Assembly: GCA_022567555.1 (NCBI GenBank)
Contig: JADFGT010000015.1
Location: 1 to 39,422, forward strand
Length of the DNA stretch: 39,422 bases
From: Armatimonadota bacterium
Lineage (GTDB): Bacteria; Armatimonadota; Fimbriimonadia; Fimbriimonadales; ATM1
Reading direction: 5' to 3'
The position numbers and the translations under genes were made by a program. Under the pieces are notes generated by a model. It was given only the letters and a program-made list of their open reading frames with translations, did not search any database and was not told the origin of the DNA. Below, piece after piece: positions 16,249 to 21,100 of this stretch. Position 1 is the first letter of the stretch; every line of letters starts with the position of its first letter.

Positions 16249-16273
16249 CCACACTCGGGTGGAACGAGTGTGG
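16249..16273. repeat. Perfect 9-bp inverted repeat in the STN/imuB divergent spacer
   Basis: CCACACTCG at 16249-16257 and CGAGTGTGG at 16265-16273 are separated by 7 bases. The same ACACTC/GAGTGT core occurs in the hairpins at 21102-21159, so this may be a member of a small intergenic repeat family. Confidence 0.55.
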
Positions 16274-16312: not shown

Positions 16313-16334
16313 ATAGTAGACGCCAGTCTACTAT
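16313..16334. promoter_or_regulatory. Perfect 22-bp dyad operator upstream of imuB-dnaE2
   Basis: ATAGTAGAC at 16313-16321 and GTCTACTAT at 16326-16334 form perfect 9-bp arms with a 4-base centre. The right arm overlaps a TATTAT hexamer at 16332-16337 that could serve as the -10 box. The dyad lies 35 bases before the imuB start. A repressor dimer bound here would block transcription. Since imuB/dnaE2 units are usually SOS genes, LexA is the natural candidate; that assignment is inferred. Confidence 0.7.
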
Positions 16335-16369
16335 TATGAGGTAGCCTACCCGCCAGAGGAGAGCGTGGC

Positions 16370-17575
16370 ATGAGCGCCATCGCGTTCGTGACCTTCGATG
16401 GATTCTATATAGCCTGCCTGGTCCGGTCCTGCCGGGGACCGGGCGGACAGCCGCTCGTGGTCCTGAAGGACCGGAGGGTGCTGGACTCTTGCGCCCAGGC
16501 CCGGAAATACGGCGTGCGGCCGGGCATCACCGCGCCGGAGGCCCGATACGCCGCCCGAGGCCACAGCCCTGCGCCCAGGTTCATAGAGTTCAAGGAGGAG
16601 GATTACGCGGCGCTCTCAAGGAGCTATCTGAACGTCTGCGCCGAATACGCTTCGGCGGTCGAACCGGTGTCGCCGCACTGCGCCTTCTTAGACCTCAGCC
16701 TGCTCCCCGGGGCGCGGCAGACGGCCCATCCCTTAGCCGCCGACATCTATCACGCGGTGCGCCTCTGCCCGCAGATCGGCATCGCAGGCAGCCGTCTGAC
16801 CGCCTGCCTGGCGGCGGAATGCACGCAGGGCCGGGCCACGGTCCTGCCGCCCGGAGGCGACGCCCGGTTCCTTGCGCCCCTGCCGATAGAAACCTTGTGG
16901 ACCGCCCGCCCCGAAATCTTGCGGCGGTTGCGGCACATGGGCTATCGCACGGTCGGCGCGGCGGCGTCCTTGCCCGCGCACCTGCTGAAAAAGCATTTCG
17001 GCGACGAAGGGCTCAGGGTTTCGCAATGGGCGAAAGGCATAGACCGCACACCGGTGCGCGCTCTCTACCCGCCGGACGAGGTCGCCTCGGCGCTCCAGTT
17101 TCCCCAGCCGGCGCGGCTTTCCCAAGAGATCGAGGCCGGACTGCGGCGCCTCGCCGAGCGCCTGAGCGCCGGGTTGAGGGCGCGCGACCGCCAGGCGTCC
17201 GAGATCGAACTGGAGGTCGGTTTTGAAGGCTCCCTTGCCCAAACGGCCCGCCGCTCTTTCACGCGCCCGATAGGCAGTTTCGGCGCGCTTCTTACCGGGC
17301 TGCGGCTCACCCTCAGAAAAATCCCGCTGGACGGCGACATTCAATCGCTAAGCGCAAGGCTGCACGAACTGCGCGGCCGGGAGGAAACACAGATGCGGAT
17401 TGCGGACACTTCACGGCAGGAAACCGACGGCAAAAAACAGTTTGAACACACTATGAAACGCCTAAAAGGTGCGTTTGGAGAAAACACGATTCGCAAGGCG
17501 GACGAGATACCGCTTCCTCGCCGCGTTGAGCTGCTGAAAACGTGGAGAGAGGCGACGGGGTGGATTGAAGTGTGA
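16370..17575 (+). CDS. imuB: ImuB-like Y-family DNA polymerase homologue, catalytic residues lost
   Basis: A 401-residue Y-family protein with palm, fingers, thumb (helix-hairpin-helix region LRRLRHMGYRTVGAAASLP) and little-finger domains in order. The first metal-binding motif, normally D.D.FY, reads TFDGFY (residues 8-13), with Thr in place of the first Asp. The second, normally S.DE..LD, reads SPHCAFLD (101-108), lacking both the Asp and the Glu. It should therefore not polymerise DNA, which is what is known for ImuB, a scaffold linking the DnaE2 polymerase to the clamp. AGAGGAGAG precedes ATG 16370. I see no obvious clamp-binding motif in the C-terminus (QETDGKKQFEHTMKRLK). dnaE2 follows after 45 bases. 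Confidence 0.82.
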   Translation: MSAIAFVTFDGFYIACLVRSCRGPGGQPLVVLKDRRVLDSCAQARKYGVRPGITAPEARYAARGHSPAPRFIEFKEEDYAALSRSYLNVCAEYASAVEPVSPHCAFLDLSLLPGARQTAHPLAADIYHAVRLCPQIGIAGSRLTACLAAECTQGRATVLPPGGDARFLAPLPIETLWTARPEILRRLRHMGYRTVGAAASLPAHLLKKHFGDEGLRVSQWAKGIDRTPVRALYPPDEVASALQFPQPARLSQEIEAGLRRLAERLSAGLRARDRQASEIELEVGFEGSLAQTARRSFTRPIGSFGALLTGLRLTLRKIPLDGDIQSLSARLHELRGREETQMRIADTSRQETDGKKQFEHTMKRLKGAFGENTIRKADEIPLPRRVELLKTWREATGWIEV

Positions 17576-17620: not shown

Positions 17621-20600
17621 ATGACAATTCTTGCACACTGGAAAGAGACCGGAAAATGGTGGGAGGGCGAACCGGAGCGCGAGTTCCGCCGCTTTCTTGA
17701 CCAAAAGGGCGTTGTGCGCCAAATGGAACGCAAGCACGCCTGCATCGCGCAGGCAGCGCCGCATACGCCGCCCACCGCCGCCGACCTCGCCGATGCGGTG
17801 AGCGCCGACTATGAACTGCTTAAGCGCGGAGCGCGTATCGTTCGCGAAGAGACGGAAACATTCGCGGAGGGGGGGCAGAAAAACCGTGCCTCGCCGTTTG
17901 TGCCGCTTCACTGCGTTTCCGCCTGCTCCTTCGGTCGAAGCACGCTTTCGCCGGAGCGAATCGCGGCGCTCGCTTGTTCGCGCGGCATGAGGGCAGCCGC
18001 GCTCGCCGACCGCTTCTCCCTCGCCGCCGCCGCCGCTTTTGCCAGGGCGTGCGCCAAGGCGGGGATAAAACCGATCATAGGCGCTTCGGTGGAGATGGAA
18101 ACCGGGGGCGAACTGGTACTGCTTGTAAAAAGCCCGCGCGGATACAGCAATCTCTGCCGGCTGATCACCCGCTGCCACTTAGAGGAACCGCGTCTATTTC
18201 CGCTTTGCACTTGGGAACGTCTCGGCGTATGTGCGGAAGGCCTTATCTGTTTGACGGGGGGGCATAACGGACCAATCAATCTTTTACTGATGGGGGACAA
18301 ACACGAGGCGGCGCAATCGTTTATAAAACGTCTCTGCGGAGTGTTTGGAAATGAACACGTTTATGTTGAGATCGAGCGCTGCTTCGTTCCGTGGGAACTC
18401 TCGGTGAACAGGCGCCTCTTGTCGCTTGCAAAAGAATGCGAAGTTTGCGCGGTGGCCGGAGGGATTATCACCCATGCCGGCCGGGACGACTTCCCGAGCC
18501 AAGACGCGCTTCTTTGCGCCGAGACCCTCTGCACAGTGGAAGAGGTGATAGGCCGCAAGCCACACCGAGACAAATCCCAGCCGCAGGCCGAGCCGAGACC
18601 GTTGCGGTCTATGAACGCCGAGAGGTTCTTTCGCTCAGGCGAACAGTTTGAAAACCTGTTCTCGGACATGCCCGAACTTATCGTAAACAGCCGCGAAATA
18701 GCGGAGCGGATGCCGGACGACCCATTCCCCCCCCGGCCGCAGTTCCCCCGGTTCTACGATGAGCCCGAGGCGATCCTGCGATACGCGGTGATGAAGGGCG
18801 CTTCCGGCCGATACAAGCGCCTTACATCGAAGGCGGTCCAGCGAATCGAGGGGGAACTGGACCGCATCTGCGAACTCGGCTTCGCCAGCCACTTTCTTGC
18901 AATCTGGGAGGCGTGCCGCTGGGCGAAGCGCAAAGGGATTCTGTTCAGCGCGCGCGGCTCCGTGGTGGACAGCGCCGTGGCATATTGCCTCGGCCTTTCA
19001 CGAATTGACGCCATCGAGCATGACCTTCATTTCGATAGGTTTCTTCCCGAAGACGGCAGCAAGAGGCCGGACATTGACATTGATTTCGAAGCGGCGCGCC
19101 GCAATGAGGTGCGCGACTTCTTTGTGAAACGTTACGGCAAGGAGCACGTGGCCGGGATCGCCGCCATCTCCACTTTTAGGGGCCGAGGAATCGTGCGCAT
19201 GATCGGCAAGGCGCTCATGATTCCGGACGACGTCCTCGGCTGTTTAGCAAAACGCCTTCACGGATCAGTGACCGGAAACAACCTGGAAGCCGCCTTTTCC
19301 GCAAGGCCCGAACTGCGCGACAGCGGTGTGCCCATAGAGCGGTTCCGGCTCCTGTTCGACATCGCGCGCCGCATTGACGGCCTGCCGCGACAGATGGCGG
19401 CGCACGCCTCCGGCCTCATTCTTTCCGCGACGCCCATTTGCGAGACCGTGCCGCTTATGGAGTCCGGGCTCGACCGTTTTCCGATGATTCAGTGGGACAA
19501 ATACAGCGCAAAGCATTTCTTCGACAAGTTCGACATCCTTTGCCTACGAGGGCAGGACGTCCTGTCCGGCACGCAGTACGCAGTAAGAGAAAACCACCCG
19601 GATAAACTCAATTTCGACGTCGGAAGGATCGCGCTCGATGATAAAGAGGTTTACGCGGTCTTTCAGACCGGCGACCTGATAGGGATCCCTCAAAGCGCAT
19701 CGCCCGCGATGCGGCAGGCACACGTGCGCCTGCGCACGGAGAACCTGCACGACGCGAGTTTGGTGCAGGCCGGCATACGCCCCGGCGTCGGAGGCGCCGT
19801 GAAAATAAACGCGCTCATCCGCCGCCGCAGGGGTCTGGAAACATATGAATATCCCCATCCGTTGCTCGAAAAGATTCTCGGAAAATCGTACGGCATCATC
19901 GTTTTTCAAGAGCAAGTGGACCAACTCTTGCAGGAGTTCTGCGGCTACACAGCGGGCGAAGCGGAAGAGATTAGGGAAAACATTTACCGCCTGCGCGCGC
20001 ACGATTGGGGCCGCACGATTCACGAAACTGTCGTTTCGCGATGCCTTGAGCGCGGTTTCCCGTCCGACGTCGCAGAGCACGTGTTCGAACTCGTTTCCGG
20101 TTTTCGCGGCTATGGGTTTGCGCAGGGGCACGCGCTTGCGTTCGCGGATATCTCCATTCGTTGCGTTCATCTGCTGCAAACTTATCCGGCTGAATATTTC
20201 GCGGCCCTCCTTTCGGCACAGCCGGCCGGTTATTACGGCCCCGGAACCATCGCCAACGAGGCCCGCCTACGCGGTGTGCAAATCCTTCCGGCGGACGTGA
20301 ACGCCTCGGGCGAACAGTTCAGCGTGGAAAACGGAAACATCCGCGTCGGTCTGGCGCAACTTCACGGGCTTTCCCAAAGAACCATGCGGCGGGTAATCGA
20401 GCGTCGCGCGGAACGCCCGTATAAATCAATCTTCGACTTCTGCGAACGAGCGCGCCCGCCTGCGGACGAATTGGAGTTTCTTATTCTTTCCGGGGCGCTC
20501 GATTCGCTTCATTGCAACCGCCGCGCGCTTCTTTGGGCGATTCCCGACGCGTTGGACGCCGCGCACGCCGGAACGGGCGGGGGCAAACTTTTCCGAGAAC

Positions 20601-21100
20601 CTGTCGGCGGAACAGTTCCGGACAACGTCGCGGACTTCTCGGATTATGAAAAGGCGGTCCTCGATCGCGCGATGCTGGGGCTGGACGTTAGAACGCATCT
20701 GATTGCGTTTGAACGCAATACAATCCTGGAAGGGGGGGGGATCACCTGCGCCGAAGCGCCACGATTGAAACCGGGAACGAAGGCGATTGTGGTCGGGCTC
20801 GCGATGCGCCTGCGGTTTCCGCCGACCGCCTCCGGCCGGCGCATTGTCTTCTTCGACCTCGAAGATGAATCGGGGCTCTTGAACGTGACCTGCTTCGACG
20901 AAACGTACCGCCGGGACGGGCACGCCATCATCTGTTCCCCGTTCGTCACTCTTCGCGGAATCGCCCAAGACCGCGATGGGCACATAGCGTTTCTGGCAAA
21001 CCGCGTCTTCCCATACGCGCTGACCGTGGACAAAGAGAATGTGGCCGAAGAACGGGGCGCGGTCCACGCCGAAGACTTCCTCGATCGCCGGGGGCGGTAG
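17621..21100 (+). CDS. dnaE2: Error-prone DnaE2/ImuC-type DNA polymerase III alpha subunit with an N-terminal extension
   Basis: A 1159-residue C-family polymerase. Residues 1-92 are an extra module opening MTILAHWKETGKWWEGEPER that is not part of normal DnaE; it resembles the short GWW..EP.R.. module (DUF6504-like) usually found near or at the end of ImuB. The PHP domain starts near residue 93 (FVPLHCVSACSF), but its metal ligands are eroded (PLHCV for HLH.H, LADR for TDH). The polymerase site is intact: PDIDIDF near residue 484 and FDKFDILCL near 636. An OB-fold lies at about 1045-1135, and the long clamp/tau-binding tail of replicative DnaE is absent. This fits translesion synthesis with ImuB. 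No imuA is seen. Confidence 0.88.
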   Translation: MTILAHWKETGKWWEGEPEREFRRFLDQKGVVRQMERKHACIAQAAPHTPPTAADLADAVSADYELLKRGARIVREETETFAEGGQKNRASPFVPLHCVSACSFGRSTLSPERIAALACSRGMRAAALADRFSLAAAAAFARACAKAGIKPIIGASVEMETGGELVLLVKSPRGYSNLCRLITRCHLEEPRLFPLCTWERLGVCAEGLICLTGGHNGPINLLLMGDKHEAAQSFIKRLCGVFGNEHVYVEIERCFVPWELSVNRRLLSLAKECEVCAVAGGIITHAGRDDFPSQDALLCAETLCTVEEVIGRKPHRDKSQPQAEPRPLRSMNAERFFRSGEQFENLFSDMPELIVNSREIAERMPDDPFPPRPQFPRFYDEPEAILRYAVMKGASGRYKRLTSKAVQRIEGELDRICELGFASHFLAIWEACRWAKRKGILFSARGSVVDSAVAYCLGLSRIDAIEHDLHFDRFLPEDGSKRPDIDIDFEAARRNEVRDFFVKRYGKEHVAGIAAISTFRGRGIVRMIGKALMIPDDVLGCLAKRLHGSVTGNNLEAAFSARPELRDSGVPIERFRLLFDIARRIDGLPRQMAAHASGLILSATPICETVPLMESGLDRFPMIQWDKYSAKHFFDKFDILCLRGQDVLSGTQYAVRENHPDKLNFDVGRIALDDKEVYAVFQTGDLIGIPQSASPAMRQAHVRLRTENLHDASLVQAGIRPGVGGAVKINALIRRRRGLETYEYPHPLLEKILGKSYGIIVFQEQVDQLLQEFCGYTAGEAEEIRENIYRLRAHDWGRTIHETVVSRCLERGFPSDVAEHVFELVSGFRGYGFAQGHALAFADISIRCVHLLQTYPAEYFAALLSAQPAGYYGPGTIANEARLRGVQILPADVNASGEQFSVENGNIRVGLAQLHGLSQRTMRRVIERRAERPYKSIFDFCERARPPADELEFLILSGALDSLHCNRRALLWAIPDALDAAHAGTGGGKLFREPVGGTVPDNVADFSDYEKAVLDRAMLGLDVRTHLIAFERNTILEGGGITCAEAPRLKPGTKAIVVGLAMRLRFPPTASGRRIVFFDLEDESGLLNVTCFDETYRRDGHAIICSPFVTLRGIAQDRDGHIAFLANRVFPYALTVDKENVAEERGAVHAEDFLDRRGR

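Follow-up and report, generated by a model that had tools for sequence, protein, structure and literature searches.

The dyad at 16313-16334 of the window, i.e. the complete stretch of 39,422 nucleotides analysed here, is very probably a LexA SOS operator; the predicted motif, GTAGAC-N4-GTCTAC, would be that of Fimbriimonadales (Armatimonadota), a group that has been little studied. The motif recurs before SOS genes across the order and is tied to one type of LexA, and the LexA protein of the genome retains the residues for cleavage. The motif is new, the regulatory system is known, and no new kind of system is involved. The contributing features are as follows.

16313..16334, no strand: dyad ATAGTAGAC-GCCA-GTCTACTAT, predicted LexA operator (sequence; recurrence at recA, a small HTH gene, imuB and lexA in relatives)
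16316..16331, no strand: core GTAGAC-N4-GTCTAC, the best-conserved part of the dyad across genes and genomes
16357..16361, + strand: AGGAG, probable ribosome-binding site (read from sequence)
16370..17575, + strand: imuB, Y-family, non-catalytic type, first gene of the operon (Pfam IMS 7e-13, IMS_C)
17621..21100, + strand: dnaE2-type C-family DNA polymerase alpha subunit (Pfam DNA_pol3_alpha 9e-60, PHP, HHH_6)

The full dyad reads ATAGTAGACgccaGTCTACTAT, and the matrix information content peaks at the GTA/TAC positions of its core. Perfect 9-bp arms, a 4-base centre and a distance of 35 bases to the imuB ATG at 16370 had been described in an earlier, sequence-only reading, and the sequence agrees on each point. 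The same reading took TATTAT at 16332-16337, which overlaps the end of the dyad, for a -10 box. This assignment is unsupported, as no recognisable sigma-70-type promoter was found at the imuB dyad. Conversely, the identification of the operon as imuB-dnaE2 is borne out by Pfam (IMS and IMS_C for the first gene, a C-family polymerase alpha subunit for the second). A related Y-family polymerase from the same bacterial family retains acidic residues (FLDLNAYF, SIDE) that are absent from the window protein, a loss to be expected of ImuB. The window dnaE2 product scored 577 bits against the NCBIfam model for error-prone DNA polymerase (PRK05672), under the cut-off of 939. With imuB and then dnaE2 behind a predicted SOS operator, the locus resembles the imuA-imuB-dnaE2 SOS mutagenesis cassette; it differs in that imuB comes first, no imuA being recognised directly upstream.

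It is the position of the sites and not their number that carries the case, because genome-wide counts exceed the control only modestly. In the pattern searches on which the genome-wide statistics are based, 89 sites with at most 2 mismatches were obtained for 61 genomes summed, compared to 60 for a reversed-pattern control, a modest excess, and an exact-core search across the phylum revealed no enrichment by number. In the genome of the window, only 2 sites match the 18 fixed positions with at most 3 mismatches (control 0), and the chance expectation of a match with at most 1 mismatch is 0.0004. The second, near-perfect copy, ATAGTAGACATATATCTACTAT, closely precedes the ATG of the gene for a 148-aa HTH protein. 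Within the family to which the window belongs (8 genomes), 14 of 15 sites with at most 2 mismatches are found just upstream of a recurring gene set, namely imuB (4), the HTH gene (5), recA (1), a Y-family polymerase (1), DinB-superfamily genes (2) and a VOC gene (1). The dyad is kept at imuB in G001, G002, G003, G006 and G007, and sites before imuB or a Y-family polymerase are present in G001, G002, G005, G007, G039 and G046, with imuB assigned by position in several other genomes. In other families, sites precede recN-like, ribonucleotide reductase small chain (nrdB-like), dnaE2-like and CI-like S24 repressor genes. Copies in front of repair genes such as lexA and recA had been proposed as the signature of an SOS operator; they exist for recA, imuB, Y-family polymerase, recN-like, nrdB-like and DinB-superfamily genes, and for lexA in part.

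At lexA itself, the GTAGAC half-site was found in 29 of 31 Fimbriimonadales promoters (null about 5%), directly after TTGAC in 20 of the 31. The full dyad occurs in few of them, and the genome of the window and most of the order lack the second arm. The expected copy at lexA is represented by a half-site in Fimbriimonadales, where the whole dyad is usually absent; in a sister class the dyad is complete or almost so. The half-operator suggests a weaker autorepression of lexA in Fimbriimonadales. The lexA gene of the window's genome encodes a canonical protein (TIGR00498, 184 bits, cut-off 111; Pfam LexA_DNA_bind and Peptidase_S24), and the Ala-Gly cleavage pair and the active-site Ser and Lys, invariant in 14 aligned LexA proteins, are kept in it. 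In the sister class of Armatimonadota, many genomes have more than one LexA type, the types being distinguished by SLRG and SSSS recognition helices (L318-L347). All 10 promoters of SLRG-type lexA genes in that class contain TTGAC(A)-GTAGAC-N4-GTCT/C, whereas none of 12 other LexA paralogues has the site in its own promoter (p=1.5e-6). The lexA promoter of G179, TTGACAGTAGACCTATGTCTACTATATAATG, contains the exact core dyad, and the TTGACA-GTAGAC arrangement is also seen before lexA at two named Chthonomonas loci (L235, L237). The recognition helix is SLRGVTVHLDAL here, compared to SSSSTVHAHL in the other LexA paralogues of the phylum. Because of the 10/10 versus 0/12 distribution over paralogue promoters, the motif is tied to the SLRG-type LexA. 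Together with the recurrence at SOS genes, this tie supports the earlier suggestion that the dyad may define the LexA motif of the lineage.

The small HTH gene (G000:C79:2115-2558; L002 1537-1983) encodes 148 aa with a weak match to the sigma70-region-4 HTH; the family assignment is a Pfam match below cut-off, with no NCBIfam match. Homologues were detected in 42 of the 61 genomes searched, and a version of the dyad is present within about 135 bp upstream of all 30 homologues examined (including L004-L032). The mean best match in these upstream regions was 13.5/16, compared to 8.8 in shuffles. A site upstream of 30/30 homologues is the pattern expected of an autoregulator, and with a sigma70-region-4-like HTH present, the small protein could itself bind the dyad and repress or activate its own gene and imuB-dnaE2, leaving LexA uninvolved. 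This reading is very unlikely. The presence of recA and lexA among the targets indicates LexA, the site of the sister class follows one LexA type (10/10 versus 0/12), and the recA promoters separate the two candidate binders. When these were scored with a matrix trained on HTH-gene sites only, with the threshold set at 99% of the null, 39 of 50 relatives with lexA were above it, and 11 had no site above it. Sites above the threshold were found in 26 of the 36 genomes that have LexA as well as the HTH gene, in 13 of the 14 in which LexA is present and no HTH gene was detected, and in neither of two genomes lacking LexA (G054 and G055, from one genus). In these two genomes of a single genus, the site is missing along with LexA. 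On account of the HTH-minus and LexA-minus genomes at recA, the HTH protein was set aside as the binder. In the genome of the window, the recA promoter, TTGACA-N17-TAGAAT, which is better defined than that of imuB, is overlaid by TAGTAGAATGCTGTCTACCT, with the -10-like TAGAAT falling within its left arm. G054 and G055 are 1.5-Mb genomes of the order that have no S24 (LexA) protein, no imuB match and no recA operator; the SOS response appears to have been lost from them.

The dyad could also be bound by a second S24 repressor of the phage (CI-like) type in place of canonical LexA, and in G035 and G056 a site does lie before a gene for an HTH_3 and S24 repressor. This is less probable still, since canonical LexA is the sole strong S24 match in the genome of the window (a second is weak), and the paralogue comparison in the sister class links the site to SLRG-type LexA. 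In G035 and G056 (L124 2060, L125 2033) the dyad is located between divergent genes for the CI-like HTH_3 and S24 repressor and a sigma70-region-2 protein, and the genus of these two genomes is without the small HTH gene.

A perfect 9-bp dyad alone is not beyond chance; it is because of its recurrence at SOS genes that this dyad is far beyond it. The window holds 6 perfect 9-bp dyads with spacers of 0-10, compared to an average of 1.75 after shuffling. A functionless chance palindrome, for which this background of about 1.75 per shuffled window and the absence of a consensus promoter at the dyad would speak, is nonetheless next to impossible and has, for practical purposes, been disproved by the genome comparisons, as the same 16-18 base word stands at recA, the HTH gene and imuB in this and related genomes and is kept at imuB in five of them (see above). 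Another of the perfect 9-bp dyads, CCACACTCG-N7-CGAGTGTGG, lies at 16249-16273, 40 bp upstream in the same intergenic region.

For the LexA operator, we infer binding, repression and damage induction at the dyad along the following lines. A LexA dimer with the SLRG-type recognition helix would bind GTAGAC-N4-GTCTAC over the promoter and keep imuB-dnaE2 silent. RecA-stimulated self-cleavage is established for LexA. Upon DNA damage, RecA on single-stranded DNA would trigger this reaction and free the operator, so that the mutagenic polymerase pair ImuB-DnaE2 could be made, in addition to RecA, the HTH protein and other products. Whether a second step follows is a more speculative matter: LexA may control the sigma70-region-4-like HTH protein, and this protein may in turn adjust RNA polymerase or late SOS genes as a further SOS regulator, a two-step circuit that we consider possible but rather doubtful. 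In any case, the motif draws attention to an HTH gene that is widespread, uncharacterised and linked to the SOS response.

In agreement with the sequence-only reading, the dyad is neither the CTGT-N8-ACAG box of E. coli nor the GAAC-N4-GTTC box of Gram-positive bacteria, both words being absent. It shares with the latter (Bacillus, Actinobacteria) a palindrome with a 4-bp centre and arms ending in AC/GT, the location over recA, lexA and polymerase-gene promoters, and a repressor of the same family. The arms are different, with CGAAC there and GTAGAC here. The Xanthomonas LexA box is TTAGTAGTAATACTACTAA, with TTAGTA-N7-TACTAA spacing. With this motif as reference, the proposed closeness to the Xanthomonas type holds for the outer TAGTA...TACTA arms and fails for the spacing (TAGTA-N7-TACTA compared to TAGTA-N10-TACTA here), and the inner GAC/GTC is missing from the Xanthomonas box.

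Lineage-specific changes of the LexA-type motif, with recA and error-prone polymerases still controlled, are likewise found in Balneolaeota and Bacteroidetes. The Balneolaeota motif is a direct repeat, TTACACATATTTTWTACATA (PMC7739468), and thus differs from the palindrome described here in both sequence and architecture. The Bacteroidetes motifs, GGA-N5-TCC and CTAA-N5-TTAG, are also of other sequence and are read by non-canonical LexA proteins (PMC8565304), as opposed to the canonical TIGR00498 LexA of the present genome. The tally of distinct LexA motifs stood at 17 in a 2021 paper (PMC8565304); the new motif would extend it by one in which the 4-bp spacing of the Gram-positive box is kept and the arms are changed. 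No description of a LexA motif or regulon for Armatimonadota was found in the literature searched, a body from which subscription papers were mostly absent. The predicted SOS operator makes the regulon of the group predictable. Moreover, a sister class with two LexA types and the motif in the promoter of only one of them provides a natural test of whether LexA duplication drives motif change.

Two further groups of genes stand behind the dyad. A recurrent protein of 240-305 aa with the motif RRAKLFEAGDYPDKG is encoded just after it at L061, L140, L181, L185 and L190 (G015, G017, G046, G050 and G041, respectively); it gave no Pfam match, and a PHROGs match to head maturation protease is marginal only (E 0.06). 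Genes of the DinB superfamily (YfiT-like) and of the VOC/glyoxalase type are repeatedly found after the dyad in several genera (L129, L131, L134, L137; L127, L133, L188) and look like regular members of the SOS regulon.
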